Source of the DNA: Clostridiales bacterium
Lineage (GTDB): Bacteria; Bacillota; Clostridia; Oscillospirales; QAMX01
Direction: 5' to 3'
Length of the DNA: 13,799 nucleotides
NCBI GenBank assembly: GCA_003149835.1
Contig: QAMX01000059.1
Location: forward strand, 1-13,799
Every line of letters starts with the position of its first letter. Position 1 is the first letter of the stretch. This document shows positions 21 to 13,462 of the stretch, one piece after another. Under the pieces are notes generated by a model that saw nothing but the letters and a program-made list of their open reading frames with translations, was not told the DNA's origin and made no database searches. The position numbers and the translations under genes are program-made.

Positions 21-1043
21 TTATTCCGGCGTTTCCCCTTCCCGCCGCGGCACGGTGACGACAAACCCGTCGAGGTTATTGCCGGAGACCTCGGCCTCTC
101 CGTCCAGCGGAACGTAGACGTCGCCGCCGGCGCAGTAGAAAATCTCATAGCTCTGGCCGAGGCACTCTGTGAACAGATGCGCGCCCTCAAACGGGTAGCT
201 TTTCAGCCAGTCCAGATATTCCTCCAAGCAGAAGCCCTTTTCCGTCATCAGCTGCGCGTGCGGCAGCCCGACGTAGCGAAAGTGCCACGGCTCGTTGGAA
301 ATCCCCGTGATCGCCTCTTTGCCCGCCGGATAGCGCTGCACAAAGCCGTAGCGCCATGCGTTTTCGCGGATCCATGCGTACGCGCCCTCTCCGTCGAAGT
401 CGCCGCTGAGGCCGGTATCCTCAAAATACAGCGCGAAGTCGACGGCGAGGCCGGTGTGGTGCTCGCTTTCACCGGGCAGCGCCACATAGCGCTCCGCGTG
501 TTCCGCCCCTTGCTCCCGCACAGCCTTATCATAGAGCTTTTCCTGATACTCCTGCGACCGCCAGCCTGCGACGATGTTGACGGTATGCAGGCCGCTCTCC
601 GCCTCGAAGTCGCCGAGCAGGCGGTTCAGCGGCTCCATGATGCGTTCCGCCGCATACAGATCGGTGCTGCGCACAAAATAGCTGGAGTTTTTATAATCGA
701 AGACGCGGACCAGCTCCGGCGCGCTGTCCGCGTCGTACGGTATGGACGGAGCGACGAGAATCAGCGCCCCTTTGGCCAGATCCTCCGGCCCCACAACGGC
801 GTATTTCCAGCCGCTGTACTGCCAGCCCGTCTCTCCGGCGGCCGGGCTGTCTTGCTCCCCGGCAACCGGCGCGGTCGTCAGCGCCGCAGGCTGCTGCGGC
901 CGCTCGCGCCCCATGCTCCGCAGGCCGTAGACCGCTGCGGCCAGAAGCGCCAATCCGGCGGCGGCGGTCAGCAGAAGCCTCGCCTCCCGCCTTTTCTTCG
1001 CCTTTGCGCGGTCGATTTTTGCGTCTCTCTGCGTCTCTTCCAC
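21..1043 (-). CDS. Membrane-anchored D-alanyl-D-alanine carboxypeptidase, M15B/VanY-like
   Basis: Predicted zinc peptidase that trims the terminal D-Ala from peptidoglycan stem peptides outside the membrane. The 340-aa product has a charged N-terminus, one membrane segment (about residues 22-41), a low-complexity linker to about 70, and an M15 catalytic domain at about 85-285. The family motif SxHxxGxAxD is seen as SEHHTGLAVD (193-202), giving zinc ligands H195 and D202. EPWH (251-254) supplies the catalytic Glu and third zinc ligand, and GWRS (160-163) is also typical. About 55 residues follow the catalytic core. The start is GTG, chosen because GAAAGGAG lies 9 nt upstream; stop is TAA. It lies 79 nt after the M14 gene on the same strand, probably co-transcribed. 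L,D-carboxypeptidase (LdcB-like) activity is the main alternative, since the motifs do not separate the two. Confidence 0.9.
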   Translation of the reverse strand: MEETQRDAKIDRAKAKKRREARLLLTAAAGLALLAAAVYGLRSMGRERPQQPAALTTAPVAGEQDSPAAGETGWQYSGWKYAVVGPEDLAKGALILVAPSIPYDADSAPELVRVFDYKNSSYFVRSTDLYAAERIMEPLNRLLGDFEAESGLHTVNIVAGWRSQEYQEKLYDKAVREQGAEHAERYVALPGESEHHTGLAVDFALYFEDTGLSGDFDGEGAYAWIRENAWRYGFVQRYPAGKEAITGISNEPWHFRYVGLPHAQLMTEKGFCLEEYLDWLKSYPFEGAHLFTECLGQSYEIFYCAGGDVYVPLDGEAEVSGNNLDGFVVTVPRREGETPE

Positions 1044-1122: not shown

Positions 1123-2082
1123 TCACCGCTCTTCTCCTTGCGCCCCGCCGGCGAGCAGTTCCAGCACGCAGGCGGTAAACCGCTCCGCATAGCCCTTTTC
1201 CAAAAAACCTTCAAAGCTGTATACGTCTCCGGGAAATTCAAACAGACAGGAGTCATACCCCAGCTCGGCCGTATAGGCGGTAAAATACCCCTCGCCGTTT
1301 CTGCAATCGGCCCATGTGTTGTCGGGAAAGCGGCTGTGAAACAGGGCAAACAGCGATCCGTCGGCTCCGTCCGAGGTGATCGTCTGCTGATACCAGCCGT
1401 GTGCGTCGATGCAGACGCTGCGGCCCGTCCCCTGAACCTCTTCCGCAAACCGCGCCAGCGCGACCGCCTCAACGCAGGCGAGCGGCGCGCCGCCGTTAAA
1501 ATTCCGCGCCCCCGTCATCGCTTTCCATCCGGCCGGAAAGCAGCGGTTCATATCGACGCCCGCGCCGGATGCGTCCAGCGAAACCACCGTACAGCGGCCG
1601 GGGCCGTCGTTTGTATGGCCGTCGTAAAGCCCGTCGGGGTTGAGGCACGGCAGCACGTAGACCGTCCAGTCCGACGCTTCGAGCAGGGCGGCGGACTGGT
1701 CCAGCGCGGCCATGAGCTGATACGCCGTGTAGACCAATACCGCGCCGTCCGCCGCAAAGCTGTCCTCATATCCGTGAATGGCAAAGGTCAGCAGAAGCGT
1801 GTTTTCGCCGCTGCCGAAGCGGTAGGCGTTCAGCGGGCGTCCCATGCCGGAACGGCCGTATTCAAGCTCCGCGCCCGTGTCGGGAAGCGTCAGACCTGAA
1901 AGCATCCGCTCCGGCATGGTGCGCTCCGTCCCGTTTTCTCCGGCGAGTTCTGCGGCGGCCAGCGTCGCCGCGGCGGCGACCAGAACCAAAATCCCCAGCA
2001 GCAGCAAACGGCGGCGGCGGCGGACGCGCCGTCTGCGATGGACGCGCGCCCGCACATATACGGCGCGCCGTTTAAACTCCAT
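1123..2082 (-). CDS. Membrane-anchored M14-family zinc carboxypeptidase
   Basis: Predicted metallocarboxypeptidase of the M14 fold. Bacterial members near a VanY-type enzyme usually cut peptidoglycan peptides, for example D-Glu-DAP bonds. The 319-aa protein begins with an Arg-rich stretch (5-25) and one membrane segment (about 26-45), so the catalytic domain should lie outside the cell. HxxE is seen as HGYE (H103, E106), the third zinc ligand is H228 in DAHGW, and the catalytic Glu is E282 in FEFPG. NPDG (148-151) and DMNR (177-180) match M14 substrate-pocket motifs. The ATG start is the one that retains the membrane anchor. AAGGG lies about 10 nt upstream, separated by CGG and a run of seven T. 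The family call is firm; the substrate is inferred from context. Confidence 0.88.
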   Translation of the reverse strand: MEFKRRAVYVRARVHRRRRVRRRRRLLLLGILVLVAAAATLAAAELAGENGTERTMPERMLSGLTLPDTGAELEYGRSGMGRPLNAYRFGSGENTLLLTFAIHGYEDSFAADGAVLVYTAYQLMAALDQSAALLEASDWTVYVLPCLNPDGLYDGHTNDGPGRCTVVSLDASGAGVDMNRCFPAGWKAMTGARNFNGGAPLACVEAVALARFAEEVQGTGRSVCIDAHGWYQQTITSDGADGSLFALFHSRFPDNTWADCRNGEGYFTAYTAELGYDSCLFEFPGDVYSFEGFLEKGYAERFTACVLELLAGGAQGEER

Positions 2083-2148
2083 AAAAAAACCGCCCTTCTA
2101 TCCGCTTGTCTGAACAGGTTCAGTCAACAGTATAGAAGAGCGGCGTTT
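2083..2148 (-). terminator. Intrinsic terminator of the regulator operon, abutting the M14 start codon
   Basis: On the minus strand CGCC (2145-2142) and CTTCTAT (2138-2132) pair with ATAGAAG (2101-2095) and GGCG (2094-2091), with a 3-nt bulge. An inner perfect hairpin, CTGAAC/GTTCAG (2123-2110), sits in the loop. Seven T follow at 2089-2083, directly before the M14 ATG. Transcripts arriving from the upstream operon would form the full stem and stop here. The right arm also contains the M14 ribosome site, so read-through RNA would mask it. Confidence 0.65.
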
Positions 2149-2159
2149 CATTCAGGCAA
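2129..2159 (-). promoter_or_regulatory. Putative activated promoter of the M14-M15 unit
   Basis: A -10 hexamer TATACT lies at 2134-2129 on the minus strand. At 17 nt upstream there is no recognisable -35 (GCCTGA). That position is instead covered by a third degenerate copy (TTGCCTGAATG, 2159-2149) of the 11-nt regulator repeat. This resembles PhoB-type activated promoters, where the activator site replaces the -35. Predicted transcription would begin near 2122, giving a leader of about 40 nt. Confidence 0.5.
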
Positions 2160-2181
2160 AATTCCGGCATCAAAACGGCAT
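2149..2181 (-). promoter_or_regulatory. Putative response-regulator operator, copy 2 (upstream of the M14 gene)
   Basis: The minus strand shows ATGCCG at 2181 and again at 2170, exactly 11 nt apart, then a degenerate TTGCC at 2159. The first 21 nt (2181-2161) are identical to 5100-5080 upstream of the response regulator. The element begins in the stop codon of the preceding gene. Direct repeats with an 11-nt period are the known binding geometry of PhoB/OmpR-family dimers. That the neighbouring regulator binds here is inference. Confidence 0.6.
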
Positions 2182-2954
2182 CACAGGATATTGAACGTCA
2201 GATTATACGGCTCAACCGTCAGCGGAAATTCATAGCTTTCGCCCGCCTGATCGGTCAGGCAGACGCGGTATCTGTAAAAATAATACGAATAATGGGGCGC
2301 ATAGGCGGGCTCTGTCTCTTCTTCATATATCTGCGCGGCCGCAAAGCCGTTCTGCTGCCGTATCCGCTCCGCCAGGGCTTTCGAAAGCTGTAAGGGGCCG
2401 CTGCCGTTCCATTGATCGGAGCCGGCCAGTCCGGCGAATTGACAGTAACCGGAAAACGAAAGCACAGCGCCGGTCGTGTCGTCGATCGTCAGGTCGATCA
2501 TATAGAACCTGCCGTCGGCGCGCGAAACCGCTTCGGTATGAGTCTCCCATACGATCATTGTGCTCCCGTCCTCCCGCGCTTTGAGCTGCGGGATATACTC
2601 GTAGTGTGCGACTTCGCTGTCCGGCAGAATTTTATCCTGCCGCAAGCCGGCGAGAAAGCTTTCGCCGTATCCGGCCGCATCCGCCGCGTCGAGATTCAGC
2701 CCCTTTTCCAGGGGGAACGAATATCGAAAATCCTCGCGGATCCGTTCCATGCGTTCGCCGGTATCGTCCTCGGCGTGATTGCCGAGGCTGACGGCGTTCA
2801 TTTCATAGACGCCGAGCTCATGCTGCTGGCGCGCGTCCTCGTATTCCGCCATGGCGCGCGGCAGATACAGCCCCGCGGCGGCGGCCGCCGCGAGCAGCAG
2901 CGCGGACAGCAGCACGCCGCCCAGCTTCGCCGGCAATTTTTCAGGCAGCTTCAC
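2181..2954 (-). CDS. Membrane-anchored extracytoplasmic protein of unknown function, two-component accessory candidate
   Basis: No family is firmly recognised in this 257-aa product. One N-terminal membrane segment (about 11-33) is followed by an extracytoplasmic region of about 220 residues. A stretch near the middle (around MIVWET to DDTTGAVLSF) has the look of a PepSY-type repeat, where an aromatic strand precedes a D-x-TG-x-VL turn; this is tentative. The GTG start overlaps the kinase stop in GTGA, with GGAGG 6 nt upstream, so the two are translationally coupled. That coupling suggests a partner of the kinase, either a ligand sensor or an inhibitor. Its stop codon runs into the operator of the M14 gene. 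Confidence 0.8.
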   Translation of the reverse strand: MKLPEKLPAKLGGVLLSALLLAAAAAAGLYLPRAMAEYEDARQQHELGVYEMNAVSLGNHAEDDTGERMERIREDFRYSFPLEKGLNLDAADAAGYGESFLAGLRQDKILPDSEVAHYEYIPQLKAREDGSTMIVWETHTEAVSRADGRFYMIDLTIDDTTGAVLSFSGYCQFAGLAGSDQWNGSGPLQLSKALAERIRQQNGFAAAQIYEEETEPAYAPHYSYYFYRYRVCLTDQAGESYEFPLTVEPYNLTFNIL

Positions 2955-4342
2955 GCCGCGCCTCCTTTCAGCGTCACCGTGACGCAGGTGCCGTTTCCGA
3001 CGCGGCTCTCAAAGGTGATCTCGCCCCCATGCAGCCGCGCGATCTCATGGCACAGCGTCAGGCCGAGGCCGACGCCGCCCTGCGCGCGGGAGCGGGACTT
3101 GTCCACGCGGTAAAAGGCCTCGGTCAGATGCGCCAGCGCCTCTTCGGGCATACCGCGCCCGTTGTCAAACACGCGGATGCGGCAGCCGTCTTCCAGCATA
3201 TCCGAGACGATACAGATATTGCCGCCGCCATCCATCGCCTTGCGCGCGTTGTCGATGAGGTTCATCAGCAGCGAGCGGACCAGATCCGGCTCCATCAGGC
3301 GCCATCCCGGCTCGCAGCGGCATTGCAGGCGGATATTCTGCTCCGCAAGAATCGGCCGCAGGTGCGCCGTCAGCGCGGCGATCATCTGCGCAGGCTCCAC
3401 AGCCGTCAGCGCGGCGGTCTGTTTTTTGGTCACCAGCAGATCCAGCAGTTTCAGAGACAGCGTCTCCAAGCGCTTGCCCTCCGAAAAAATATAGTTGGCC
3501 GCGTCCATCTGCTCCTCCGGCGCGAGCGCCTGGGCGCGGAGCAGATCCGCATAGCCGATGATCGAGGTCATCGGCGTTTTCATCTCATGCGCAAAGCTGC
3601 CCATAAACCGCTCCTGACGCTCGACCGACTGTTCCAGCTCGGCGACGCCCGCTTCGAGCTTTTCAGCCATATTGTTGAAATCCGCCGCCAGCGCGCCCAC
3701 CTCGTCTCTGGTGCGCACGCGCGCGCGGAAGTCGAGCTTCCCGCGCGCCAGCTCTCTGGAAGCGCGCGACAGCGCCCTCAGCGGCCGCGTCAGCAGCCAT
3801 GCTGCGCTCCACGCCAGCAGCGCGCCCGCGGAGATCAGGATGAGAAACAGCTTCCGGCAGAGCTCGAGCTGCTGCGCGCGCGTCTCATAGACGGGCGTGA
3901 TGTCATAGGCGATGTCGAGCGCCAGCACCTCCCGGTCCGCGGTCAGCAGCCCGCCGATTTGCAGATAGCGCCTGCCGTCGTTGCCGGTAAACGCCGCGGC
4001 GCGGTAATGCGCCGTGTCCGAGGCGAGCGCGAGCATTTCCGAGGCCGCCGTCCCGTCGCCGTAGACGGCGACGCCGTCCACCGCCAGTCGCACCGACGAC
4101 CAGGCGTTTTGCCGGCGCAGGGCCGCCAGCGTGTCGGTGATCTTGCCGAGGCTCTCGGACTCGCCGACGGCGTTGACCAGCCGCAGCGTCTCGGTCGTCA
4201 TCTGAAAGGTGCTTCGGGCGCTGCTCATCTCATGCTCCAGCGAGCGCCGGAAAGAGAGCGAAATCATCAGGCCGCCGCCGATTCCGAAGATCAGCGCCAG
4301 CAGCCAGACCATGCAGACTGTAATTTTGAGGCGAAAGCTCAT
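2951..4342 (-). CDS. Sensor histidine kinase (HAMP, HisKA, HATPase_c)
   Basis: Membrane sensor that autophosphorylates on His and passes phosphate to the adjacent response regulator. The 463 residues contain TM1 (about 7-29), an extracytoplasmic sensor domain of about 130 residues, TM2 (about 165-185), HAMP (about 185-237) and HisKA. The H-box is FAHEMKTP, with phospho-acceptor H252. In the ATPase domain the N-box is NLIDNA (361-366), the G1 box is DNGRGM (393-398) and the G2 box is GGVGLGL (422-428). All catalytic motifs look intact. ATG has GGGAGG 6 nt upstream. The gene starts 44 nt after the regulator gene and overlaps the next gene by 4 nt. The signal is unknown; the neighbouring wall peptidases suggest envelope or wall stress. 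Confidence 0.95.
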   Translation of the reverse strand: MSFRLKITVCMVWLLALIFGIGGGLMISLSFRRSLEHEMSSARSTFQMTTETLRLVNAVGESESLGKITDTLAALRRQNAWSSVRLAVDGVAVYGDGTAASEMLALASDTAHYRAAAFTGNDGRRYLQIGGLLTADREVLALDIAYDITPVYETRAQQLELCRKLFLILISAGALLAWSAAWLLTRPLRALSRASRELARGKLDFRARVRTRDEVGALAADFNNMAEKLEAGVAELEQSVERQERFMGSFAHEMKTPMTSIIGYADLLRAQALAPEEQMDAANYIFSEGKRLETLSLKLLDLLVTKKQTAALTAVEPAQMIAALTAHLRPILAEQNIRLQCRCEPGWRLMEPDLVRSLLMNLIDNARKAMDGGGNICIVSDMLEDGCRIRVFDNGRGMPEEALAHLTEAFYRVDKSRSRAQGGVGLGLTLCHEIARLHGGEITFESRVGNGTCVTVTLKGGAA

Positions 4343-4386
4343 GCAAAACCTCCCGGCAACGGCGATTTCTCAGCCTGTCAGCCGCG

Positions 4387-5046
4387 TCACTCCCCGGCGC
4401 TCAGCCGGTAGCCGACCTTGTTGACCGCGACCAGCCTGTCCTCCCAGCCGACTTTTTTTCTCAGCCGCTGGATATGCAGATCGACCGTCTTGCTGCCGTA
4501 TGGAAATTCCTCGTTCCACACCCGCTCGTAGATCGTCTCGCGGTAAAGCGCGATGCCCGGATTCCGCGCGAACAGAAGCAGCAGGTCGTATTCCTTTTTC
4601 GTCAGCGCGACGATCTCTCCGCCGCGCCGCACGATCATCGCCCGCGTGTCGATCGTCAGCCCGCCGATCTCGATGACGCCGCTGGTCTTGCTGTACCGGC
4701 GCAGCACCACGTCCACGCGCGCCAGCAGTTCGAGCACCTCAAAGGGCTTGACGATATAGTCCTCCGCGCCCATGCGCAGGCCCTTGACCCGGTCGCCCAC
4801 GGAGTCTTTCGCCGTGATAAAAATGACCGGCGTGCCCGTGGGGCGGATGTACTCCATCAGCTCAAACCCGTCGATTTGCGGGAGCATCACGTCGAGGAGC
4901 ACCAGGTCATAGGCATTCGTTTCCAGCAGGTCGGCGGCCTCCGCCCCGTCGCCCGCGCAGGTGCAGGCGTAGCCGGCCTTTTTCAGGCTGAGGCGGATCA
5001 GCTCGGCGATCGGTTTTTCGTCCTCGACGACAAGAATTCGGATCAT
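4387..5046 (-). CDS. OmpR/PhoB-family response regulator
   Basis: DNA-binding partner of the adjacent kinase. The receiver domain (about 1-120) shows acidic residues E8-D9, phospho-acceptor D52 in LLDVMLP, and the conserved Lys in IVKPFE. A winged-helix effector domain follows (about 125-219), with the typical TKKEYDLL start and a C-terminal SKTVDLHIQRLRKK recognition region. The start is ATG at 5046, giving 219 aa. GGAAGGAGG ends 7 nt before it, whereas an in-frame ATG at 5067 lies upstream of that ribosome site and one at 5052 directly abuts it. It is the first gene of the regulator-kinase-accessory operon. Its upstream region carries repeats expected for autoregulation. VanR-like and PhoP-like regulators have the same build, so no gene name is given. 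Confidence 0.95.
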   Translation of the reverse strand: MIRILVVEDEKPIAELIRLSLKKAGYACTCAGDGAEAADLLETNAYDLVLLDVMLPQIDGFELMEYIRPTGTPVIFITAKDSVGDRVKGLRMGAEDYIVKPFEVLELLARVDVVLRRYSKTSGVIEIGGLTIDTRAMIVRRGGEIVALTKKEYDLLLLFARNPGIALYRETIYERVWNEEFPYGSKTVDLHIQRLRKKVGWEDRLVAVNKVGYRLSAGE

Positions 5047-5056
5047 CCTCATCCCT

Positions 5057-5100
5057 CCTTCCGGCATGTATCATACATCATTCCGGCATCAAAACGGCAT
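5057..5100 (-). promoter_or_regulatory. Putative response-regulator operator, copy 1, with embedded -10 (autoregulation)
   Basis: Reading the minus strand, ATG recurs at 5100, 5089, 5078 and 5067, exactly 11 nt apart. Three of the four units begin ATGCCG (5100, 5089, 5067); the third unit is degenerate (ATGTAT). The first 21 nt equal those at 2181-2161. A -10 candidate, TATGAT, lies at 5075-5070 with no -35 hexamer in front, only the repeats. The last unit merges with the ribosome site of the regulator gene. Binding here could activate from this -10, or block transcripts from the promoter at 5226-5198. Confidence 0.6.
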
Positions 5101-5371: not shown

Positions 5372-5499
5372 TATGGTTATATCCCAAATTGGTTCCATTC
5401 TCTTGTCGTGAAAGCGTTGCTTCCTATCAGAGCTCCCCGAATACGCCGGCGAATACCTATACCTATGCAATCAGGATCAGGTGAAGGAGGGTGAACAAT

Positions 5500-6210
5500 A
5501 TGCGCAGACGAACCTTTTTCTGTTTGATTTTGTCGGGCGCGCTGCTGCTGACGGGCTGCGGTGCGCCCGGAGAGGCAGACGCGACGACGCCCGCGCCAAC
5601 CGTTTCCTCACCGCCGTCTGAGTCCAGCGCGGCAGCACAAACAACCTCCCCTTCAACGCCCGCGACATCCACCCAGAGCGGCTCTGTTTCAACGCCCGCG
5701 ACGGCCGCGGAGCAGACGAGCGCCGCGCCGGAGAGCGACCCCGTCTCTGCCGAGACGACCCTTGCCGATCCGTGGCAGTTGCTCGCCGACGAATGGCGGA
5801 CAAAGACGCTGCCGCTCGAAGCCGGGGAGGACGGCCGGCTCGTCGCCGAATTTGTGGCGGCCTACTTCGCCGCATTCGAGCATTTGACGCCGGAGGATTC
5901 TCCGTTTGCTTACAGCGACTCCGCGGTGCTGTCGTTTATGCTGCCGCAGGTGGCACAGGAACGGATACCGGAGACCGGAGAGAACGCCCTGTTGCTGATC
6001 GCCCCTGTGAGGTACGCGATTCATCTGTATGAATCGTCTGGCTGGGCCGGAGGCGGTTATGAGCAAGGCGAAGGCGAATACGAGGGCTGGATCATCACCG
6101 GAAATGACTTTGTATTCACCCTTGATGAAAACCGCCTCTGGCGATACAGCGGCATGGGAACCGGTTATCCCTACATCGACTGGGGTCAGCCGTGGCACGA
6201 GTTTGAATGA
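5500..6210 (+). CDS. Secreted lipoprotein of unknown function
   Basis: A 236-aa product with an Arg-rich N-terminus, a hydrophobic signal segment and a lipobox LTGC (C20), so it should be lipid-anchored on the outer face of the membrane. Residues about 22-85 are a low-complexity Ser/Thr/Pro/Ala linker, which usually spans the cell wall. A compact acidic domain of about 150 residues follows, rich in Trp and Tyr near its end (GYPYIDWGQPW). I do not recognise its family. ATG at 5500 is preferred because AAGGAGG ends 9 nt upstream; a GTG at 5491 directly abuts that site. The gene is a single unit with its own promoter and a strong terminator. It is divergent from the two-component operon, and any link to it is unproven. 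Confidence 0.85.
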   Translation: MRRRTFFCLILSGALLLTGCGAPGEADATTPAPTVSSPPSESSAAAQTTSPSTPATSTQSGSVSTPATAAEQTSAAPESDPVSAETTLADPWQLLADEWRTKTLPLEAGEDGRLVAEFVAAYFAAFEHLTPEDSPFAYSDSAVLSFMLPQVAQERIPETGENALLLIAPVRYAIHLYESSGWAGGGYEQGEGEYEGWIITGNDFVFTLDENRLWRYSGMGTGYPYIDWGQPWHEFE

Positions 6211-6236: not shown

Positions 6237-6275
6237 AGTTCCGGCGCGGATGCCCATCCGCGCCGGAACTTTCTG
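6237..6275 (+). terminator. Intrinsic terminator of the lipoprotein gene
   Basis: A perfect 15-bp stem (6237-6251 with 6256-6270) closes a 4-nt loop and is followed by TTCTGTCTT. It lies 26 nt after the lipoprotein stop. The tail is only moderately T-rich but the stem is very stable. Confidence 0.8.
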
Positions 6276-6455: not shown

Positions 6456-8456
6456 GTGGTTTCATCAGGCGCGGAGGTGATTTTTACGGACAGATTCGAG
6501 CTTGTTTCGGAGTATTCCCCGGCCGGCGATCAGCCGGAGGCGATCGACTCGCTCGTACAGGGGATTGAAAACGGCCTTTCCGAGCAGACGCTGCTCGGCG
6601 TCACCGGGTCGGGCAAAACGTATACGATGGCGCAGGTCATTCAGCGCGTACAGAAGCCGACGCTCGTGCTCGCGCACAACAAGACGCTCGTCTCGCAGCT
6701 CTATTCGGAATTCCGCGAGTTTTTTCCCAACAACGCGGTCGAATACTTCGTCTCCTACTTCGACTATTATAAGCCGGAGTCGTATCTCCCGCAGTATGAT
6801 ATGTATATTGAAAAGAACTCCGAGCGCAACGACGAGATCGACCGGCTCCGCCACTCGGCGACCTGCGCGCTGTTTGAGCGGCGCGACGTCATCATCGTCG
6901 CCAGCGTCTCGTGTATCTACGGCCTCGGCGACCCCGAGGATTATACCTCGCTCGTCGTCTCGCTGCGCCCCGGCATGGAGATCGGGCGCGACCAGATCAT
7001 CCGGCGCCTCATCGACATCCAGTATACGCGCAACGACATGAACCTGATCCGCGGCACGTTCCGCGTCCGCGGCGACACCATCGAGGTCATCCCGTCGTGG
7101 AGCGAGGAGACCGTCATCCGCATCGAGCTGTTCGGCGACGAGGTTGAGCGCCTCAGCGAGGTTCACTTCGTCACCGGCAACCGCCTGCGCGAGCTGAACC
7201 ATGTGATGATCTATCCGACCTCGCACCACACGACCTCGGACGAAAAGAAGCAGCGCGCCCTGAAAGAGATCGAAGCGGAGATGTGGGAGCGCGTCAAATG
7301 GTTTGAGGAGCGCGGCAAGCTCATCGAGGCGCAGCGCATCCGCGAGCGGACGCTGAACGATCTCGAGCTGCTCGCGCAGATCGGCGTCTGCAACGGCGTT
7401 GAAAACTATTCGCGCATCTTCTCCAACCGCGCCCCGGGCTCGGCGCCCTACACGCTGCTCGACTATTTCCCCAAGGACTACCTGATGATCATCGACGAGT
7501 CGCACGTCTCGGTGCCGCAGGTGCGCGGCATGTACGCCGGCGACCGCTCGCGCAAGGAGACGCTCGTCGAATACGGGTTCCGGCTGCCCAGCGCGCTCGA
7601 CAACCGGCCGCTGACGTTTGAGGAATTCACCGCCAAGCAGAACCAGGTCATCTACGTCTCGGCGACGCCGGGCGAATTCGAGCGCAGCCGCTCGGGCCAG
7701 ATCGTCGAACAGGTTATCCGCCCCACCGGCCTCGTCGACCCGGAGGTGCAGGTGCGGCCGGTCGAGGGACAGATCGACGATCTGATCGGCGAAATCAACG
7801 AGCGTGCGGCGAAGAACGAGCGCGTCCTCGTGACGACGCTGACGAAAAAAATGGCCGAGGATCTGACCAAATATATGGAAAACGCGGGCATCCGCGTCCG
7901 CTATATGCACCACGACGTGCACACCATGGAGCGCATCGAGCTGCTCCGCGACCTGCGCCTCGGCAAATTCGACGCGCTCGTCGGCATCAACCTGCTCCGA
8001 GAGGGGCTCGACCTGCCCGAGGTCTCGCTCGTCGCCGTGCTCGACGCGGATAAGGAGGGCTTTCTGCGCAGCGAGACCTCGCTGATTCAGATCATCGGCC
8101 GCGCCGCCCGCAACGCCGAGGGCAAGGTCATCCTCTACGCCGACAAGATCACCGATTCGATGGCCGGCGCGCTTCGGGAGACGGAGCGCCGCCGCAAGTT
8201 GCAGCTCGCCTTCAACGAAAAGCACCACATCGTCCCCAAAACCATCAAAAAAGGCATCCGCGACCTCATCGACATCGGCGCTCCGGCGCAGGAGAGCCAG
8301 GCGGAAGCGGAGAAGCCGGAGAAATATATGACCGCCGCCGAAAAATCCGAGCTGATCGAACAGCTCAAACGCGACATGAAGCAGGCGGCCAAGGCCATGG
8401 AATTCGAATACGCCGCGCTGCTGCGCGACCGCATCATCGAGCTGAGCGGCGGCTGA
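6456..8456 (+). CDS. uvrB: Excinuclease ABC subunit B (UvrB)
   Basis: Damage-verifying helicase-like subunit of nucleotide excision repair; it is loaded by UvrA and recruits UvrC. The 666-aa frame has Walker A GVTGSGKT (about 48-55), the [16 protein letters not shown] beta-hairpin region, Walker B IIDESH near residue 347, motif [10 protein letters not shown], and a C-terminal UVR domain ([12 protein letters not shown] onward) for UvrC contact. Length and order match the family. The start is uncertain. GTG at 6456 has no ribosome site. The strong GGAGG at 6473-6477 lies inside this frame, 8 nt before an ACG codon (6486) that begins TDRFELVS, close to where UvrB homologues start. The true protein may therefore be about 656 aa. 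Confidence 0.97.
6473..6477 (+). promoter_or_regulatory. uvrB: Ribosome binding site that questions the uvrB start
   Basis: GGAGG at 6473-6477 is the only good ribosome site before uvrB. GTG at 6477 overlaps it and ATT at 6480 is 2 nt away. ACG at 6486 is 8 nt away, which is the ideal spacing but a very rare start codon. Confidence 0.6.
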
Positions 8457-13415: not shown

Positions 13416-13462
13416 ACAGCACCCCAAAAGTCGGTCTTTTCGTCCGACTTTTGGGGTGCTGT
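13416..13462. repeat. 19-bp perfect inverted repeat between convergent genes
   Basis: Arms 13416-13434 and 13444-13462 are exact complements around a 9-nt loop. Each arm contains a CCCCAAAAG or CTTTTGGGG block. It sits 4 nt beyond the stop of the minus-strand kinase-like gene. No T-run lies outside the arms, but four T are inside each right arm after a CCGAC stem, so it may act as a bidirectional terminator. A dispersed repeat family is the alternative. Confidence 0.75.

Follow-up and report, generated by a model that had tools for sequence, protein, structure and literature searches.

The 13,799-nucleotide (nt) stretch analyzed here, which we call the window, is contig QAMX01000059.1 of a Clostridiales bacterium (assembly GCA_003149835.1). 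Its minus strand encodes, in this order, a response regulator of the OmpR/PhoB type, a histidine kinase, a third protein, an M14 peptidase and a VanY-type carboxypeptidase. The same 21-nt box stands upstream of the regulator gene and again upstream of the M14 gene. We consider it very probable that this box is the operator of the neighboring regulator, which would use it to drive both its own operon and the carboxypeptidase genes. The box recurs in the promoters of related regulators at a fixed distance from the -10 hexamer and is rare elsewhere in their genomes.

The repeated box in the window

The two copies, at positions 2181-2161 and 5100-5080 of the minus strand, are identical over 21 nt and hold two ATGCCG half-sites 11 nt apart, separated by TTTTG, just as an initial annotation made from the sequence had reported; GAAT completes the 21 nt. 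This exact two-half-site pattern occurs twice in the whole window, and the 21-nt pair is the window's longest direct repeat. None of 1000 exact dinucleotide shuffles contained a direct repeat of that length (the largest measured 20 nt), which agrees with the earlier statement that a chance match is very unlikely. The test counts direct repeats whose copies lie at least 100 nt apart; with inverted repeats included, the shuffles reach 25 nt.

The copies also lie where the annotation had placed them, one before the regulator gene and the other just upstream of the M14 gene, where the third gene ends. The regulator-side box starts 54 nt upstream of the regulator ATG at 5046. The distance from the start of the second box to the M14 ATG at 2082 is 99 nt, and the first A of this box doubles as the final base of the third-gene stop codon (2183-2181). 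Each box is followed by a predicted -10 hexamer, with offsets from the box start that differ by two 11-nt steps, and at both promoters one further half-site falls in the 11-nt register; the annotation mentioned neither these hexamers nor these half-sites. The features of the two promoters and the genes they precede are as follows.

5080-5100, minus strand: candidate own-promoter operator of the regulator, with ATGCCG half-sites at 5100-5095 and at 5089-5084 (sequence, conservation, -10 phase)
5070-5075, minus strand: hexamer TATGAT, predicted -10 for the regulator operon, beginning 25 nt past the start of its box (TANNNT at the same offset in 57 of 61 promoters)
5062-5067, minus strand: additional half-site, again ATGCCG, set 33 nt (3 x 11) downstream of the first one (sequence)
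2161-2181, minus strand: candidate operator upstream of the peptidase genes, with one half-site at 2181-2176 and one at 2170-2165 (sequence, matrix, alignment)
2154-2159, minus strand: degenerate third half-site TTGCCT in 11-nt register with the second box (sequence, alignment)
2129-2134, minus strand: hexamer TATACT, predicted -10 for the peptidase promoter, beginning 47 nt past the start of its box (-10 phasing, alignment)
4387-5046, minus strand: OmpR/PhoB-type response regulator (Pfam Response_reg 5.1e-29, Trans_reg_C 2.5e-19)
2951-4342, minus strand: sensor histidine kinase with HAMP, HisKA and HATPase_c domains (Pfam)
2181-2954, minus strand: third operon gene, whose membrane-anchored product has an outer domain predicted to be YpeB-like (prediction)
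1123-2082, minus strand: M14-family zinc carboxypeptidase (Pfam Peptidase_M14)
21-1043, minus strand: VanY-type D-alanyl-D-alanine carboxypeptidase (Pfam VanY; the best-scoring solved structure is a D,D-dipeptidase/D,D-carboxypeptidase)

The regulator combines a receiver domain with the Trans_reg_C winged helix and so belongs to the OmpR/PhoB type.

Conservation in related loci and genomes

We scanned GTDB species genomes with the regulator and kept the best 80 of 416 loci (L001-L080); one locus from a plasmid record (L081) was added, giving 81 loci in total. In all 80 scanned loci the regulator match starts at the residue encoded by the ATG at 5046, although the start codon is not always ATG. 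A kinase match begins no more than 1200 nt from the regulator start in 80 of the 81 loci, and further on in L081. Thirty-five of the 81 have a VanY match downstream, on the regulator's strand.

The core TGCCGTTTTGATGC is found with at most two mismatches in the 250 nt upstream of the regulator in 54 of the 81 loci (23, 17 and 14 loci with zero, one and two mismatches), against 9 of 1620 shuffled stretches, these being Markov samples of the 250-nt upstream stretches and not exact shuffles. On the antisense strand, three of the 81 stretches match (L012, L013 and L018), and the L013 and L018 matches are the sites before divergent FemAB genes. MAFFT inserted no gap when it aligned 51 own promoters over 42 columns (alignment A2: 50 of the 60 loci with at most three mismatches, plus the window). 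The additional half-site at 5067-5062 is not generally shared by these promoters. Across the 60 loci and the window, 57 of the 61 own promoters have a TANNNT hexamer whose first base lies exactly 25 nt past the start of the box; other offsets average 0.9. Because this phase is fixed and played no part in choosing the promoters, which were picked on the core alone, it ties the box to the promoter. The box is a tandem direct repeat in steps of about 11 bp within a promoter, as in OmpR/PhoB operators, and its conservation inside the promoters of orthologous regulators is the sequence pattern expected of autoregulation. L012 is Enteroscipio rubneri, of the Actinomycetota; there, a second exact core (minus strand, 7842) faces away from the regulator, towards a divergent response-regulator gene.

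Target promoters were searched with a 60-column matrix from which the scored locus, not its close kin, was left out, at a threshold of 20 bits. A site reaching 20 bits precedes VanY in 23 of the 35 loci with a downstream VanY gene. The resulting alignment A1 holds 33 target promoters over 64 columns without gaps. Behind them stand VanY (24), M14 then VanY (the window), FemAB (4, by Pfam in three and in L018 by likeness to L013) and alanine racemase (3); in the remaining one, L008, the contig ends. A1 omits the 28-bit site at 7842 of the L012 minus strand and four matches of at least 20 bits that are regulator promoters, and adds L002 (15 bits).

Since the 60-column matrix includes the -10 hexamer, we also made a selection on half-sites only. 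A half-site pair lies between the kinase end and VanY in 30 of the 35 loci. TANNNT follows at +47 in 17 of these pairs and at +36 in eight, with both offsets present in L054 and L072, so that 23 of the 30 have a -10 hexamer in phase; among other pairs of offsets separated by 11 nt, the best accounts for three. Measured from the first half-site, the target -10 hexamer is thus more distant than that of the own promoter by two 11-nt steps. The +36 cases, one step further, may be those where the chosen pair is the next one down.

For the M14 gene, tblastn at E<=1e-6 gave no match in any of the 81 loci; 74 of them extend at least 3.5 kb past the regulator start. M14 is a local addition, and VanY is the usual target gene. 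Of the pair of wall carboxypeptidases that the annotation had the system switch on, the VanY member is widely found behind the site in relatives, and the M14 member was met in the window.

The box is also rare within genomes. Twelve genomes contain 13 exact cores; by the coordinates of the regulator loci, 11 lie in the regulator's own promoter, one in the Enteroscipio divergent intergenic region and the last at another location. If one mismatch is permitted, the count rises to 46, compared with 11 for the reversed pattern. At E<1e-4 the target profile R1 gives eight matches in the same genomes, all inside the fetched regulator locus; another 38 genomes add 23 matches, of which 21 fall inside that locus. 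For the own-promoter profile R2, 42 of the 50 genomes have a match at E<=0.02. Random or mobile multiplicity, which the annotation had named as grounds for rejecting its reading, was therefore absent from the related genomes, and the predicted regulon would be very small.

Away from the regulator locus, a site precedes a gene for a transglutaminase-like protein (L174, E 5e-7), and weaker ones stand before an alanine racemase (L168), a PG_binding_4 protein (L131), an S-layer-homology protein (L122) and a distal VanY (L133). Weak distal matches (L097, L099, L136, L137, L138, L139 and L167) were not used as targets. Among 295 genomes of one order, that of G001, stricter filters leave seven with an R1 match at E<=1e-4, and the target site is thus far from universal in that order. 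Three of the seven are additional to those above: the site in L177 precedes a FemAB-like frame (by likeness to the L018 protein), and that in L178 an L,D-transpeptidase gene. In L179, positions 1501-1573 hold five half-sites in 11-nt register before a gene for a protein without a Pfam match. The strong targets that could be identified, VanY, FemAB, alanine racemase and L,D-transpeptidase, act on the wall or envelope.

The probable binding protein, the proposed mechanism and its alternatives

OmpR/PhoB regulators bind direct repeats through their recognition helix, as two studies describe (PMC4832192, PMC3960148). The same studies describe the pho box and the PhoP boxes of E. coli and M. tuberculosis as direct repeats of about 6-7 bp in steps of about 11 bp, occupied by a tandem dimer. 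In comparison with these boxes, and as far as the consulted papers show, the ATGCCG half-site and the two-turn difference between own and target -10 positions are particular to the group studied here.

We also looked for covariation between the regulator's helix and the half-sites. The comparison covers 47 loci whose second half-site reads ATGCC or ATGCA, together with a kinase tree, and uses the residues that we take to be the recognition helix. Where the variable helix position is K, the second half-site is ATGCC in 26 loci and ATGCA in three; where it is R, it is ATGCA in 17 and ATGCC in one. The first half-site splits more loosely (R helices: ATGCA 11, ATGCC 4). In a clade with a GSRVVD helix, three of four loci (L014, L015 and L025) carry ATACA-type half-sites 11 nt apart with the -10 hexamer at the same position. 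The K/R covariation serves as a pointer and not as a statistical test, because the tree needs only two K/R changes.

We propose that the histidine kinase senses an envelope signal and that the regulator, once phosphorylated, would bind head-to-tail on the two ATGCCG half-sites spaced 11 nt. If transcription starts 7 nt past the -10 hexamer, as we assumed, the half-sites of the own promoter fall at about -37 and -26, in place of a -35 element, so that the regulator would switch on its own operon of regulator, kinase and YpeB-like membrane protein. In the second promoter the half-sites would lie two helical turns further up, at about -59 and -48, with the weak third one at -37. From there the regulator would drive the M14 and then the VanY carboxypeptidase, which are expected to trim the stem peptides of the wall. 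The annotation had proposed such an autoregulated switch for wall carboxypeptidases; sites conserved at both promoters across genera, their phase and the gene content speak for it, and the choice of this regulator as the binder, the activating sense and the signal are parts of the model.

Several observations weigh against this proposal. Twenty-seven of the 81 loci have three or more mismatches within 250 nt of the regulator, and the loci without a site include four close kin, L054, L070, L072 and L076, three of which have the VanY site. L001, the nearest relative, has no site between the third gene and VanY at the 20-bit threshold. A half-site pair also occurs in nine of 35 control stretches of equal length inside the kinase gene, and some of the 30 pairs before VanY may therefore be chance; seven of the 30 lack an in-phase -10 hexamer. 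The association of helix and half-site amounts to two K/R changes on the tree and is broken by L007, L010, L021 and L023. Finally, a few of the weaker genome-wide sites precede genes unrelated to the wall, for example an F420-ligase-like gene (L136).

The same regulator could also act as a repressor, blocking RNA polymerase at the boxes and turning the genes on upon release. The own-promoter box does cover the -35 region, and the additional half-site at 5067-5062 lies near the predicted start. We nevertheless think repression unlikely, as inspection by eye shows no consensus -35 element at its customary position, the box keeps a constant distance to the -10 as expected of activation, and the two best half-sites of the target promoter lie upstream of -35. 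In the analogous DacRS system of C. difficile, moreover, deletion left dacJ unchanged and dacS mutations raised dacJ, according to the portions of the study that we draw on (PMC11326576).

The sites found away from the regulator locus in some genomes would suit another OmpR-type regulator or a global factor, whose boxes would lie close to the regulator gene incidentally. The concentration of exact cores in the regulator's own promoter and the joint difference of half-sites and recognition helix in the GSRVVD clade make this very improbable. The identity of the copies over 21 nt within one window would in turn fit coincidence, or a repeat that arose by duplication or is mobile, in either case of no regulatory meaning. 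That explanation is already contradicted, and we give it almost no weight, given the shuffles, the rarity of the box in genomes and its conservation at a fixed promoter phase across genera. The exact 17-mer occurs in five contigs of a viral collection of 2.9 million contigs, which we estimate, with an assumed base count for the collection, to be near the chance level, and there was no Rfam match at gathering scores. On the shuffles, the viral count and the Rfam search we rejected chance, a mobile repeat and an RNA element as candidates.

Comparison with known systems and further features of the window

The closest described system that we met is DacJRS of C. difficile. As far as the consulted portions of its description go (PMC11326576), regulator and kinase form an operon with one promoter, the neighboring D,D-carboxypeptidase gene is transcribed separately, and activity of both promoters depends on the two-component system. 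On the basis of expression data, the authors conclude that the system activates the carboxypeptidase gene and probably its own operon. Judged by sequence, the window has the same wiring, a regulator-kinase operon beside a D,D-carboxypeptidase gene with its own promoter. It adds a third, YpeB-like gene and the M14 peptidase, and the likeness noted here is one of wiring. We found no operator sequence in the DacJRS account, in whose main text 'consensus', 'EMSA' and 'regulon' occur 0 times. Searches of an open-access library likewise gave no paper that describes the box. The wiring is thus already known from DacJRS, and the operator is apparently undescribed so far.

Glycopeptide-resistance clusters of the VanRS-VanY kind likewise place a two-component system beside a VanY-family D,D-carboxypeptidase. 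Unlike in these clusters, the regulator, kinase and enzyme of the window score far below the cut-offs of the curated Van models: 161 bits against 350 for VanR (ABDEGLN), 131 against 400 for VanS, 113 against 400 for VanY_BG and 151 against 250 for vanXY. A Pfam scan of eight proteins of the window gave no match to a ligase family.

A broader proposal, to which we give an even chance, is that the box marks an undescribed wall-remodelling regulon, wide in gut Oscillospiraceae and Lachnospiraceae and present in at least one species of Actinomycetota. One operator code and two fixed geometries would stay constant while the controlled enzyme is swapped by lineage (D,D-carboxypeptidase, FemAB, alanine racemase, L,D-transpeptidase, or M14 plus VanY), and the YpeB-like protein would feed back on the kinase or the peptidases. 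The operator and its -10 phase provide a sequence-level handle on a two-component system of many uncultured gut bacteria and allow targets to be predicted in the genomes of organisms that cannot be grown. The two geometries also offer a clean test case for one regulator activating from two distances.

As for the proteins themselves, the family match suggests that the VanY-type enzyme removes terminal D-Ala, and a hydrophobic N-terminal stretch, seen by eye, indicates that the M14 peptidase is probably exported. The outer part of the 2181-2954 product is predicted to resemble the YpeB C-terminal domain; a Foldseek search with this protein gave no significant match. In many relatives a protein of similar size follows the kinase.

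Outside the operon, a divergent frame at 5491-6210 encodes a putative lipoprotein with a Ser/Thr/Pro-rich stretch and without a Pfam match. Just after it, 6237-6270 form a perfect 16-nt inverted repeat with a 2-nt spacer, perhaps a terminator. A perfect 19-nt inverted repeat with arms 9 nt apart lies between two frames at 13416-13462 and may likewise be a terminator.

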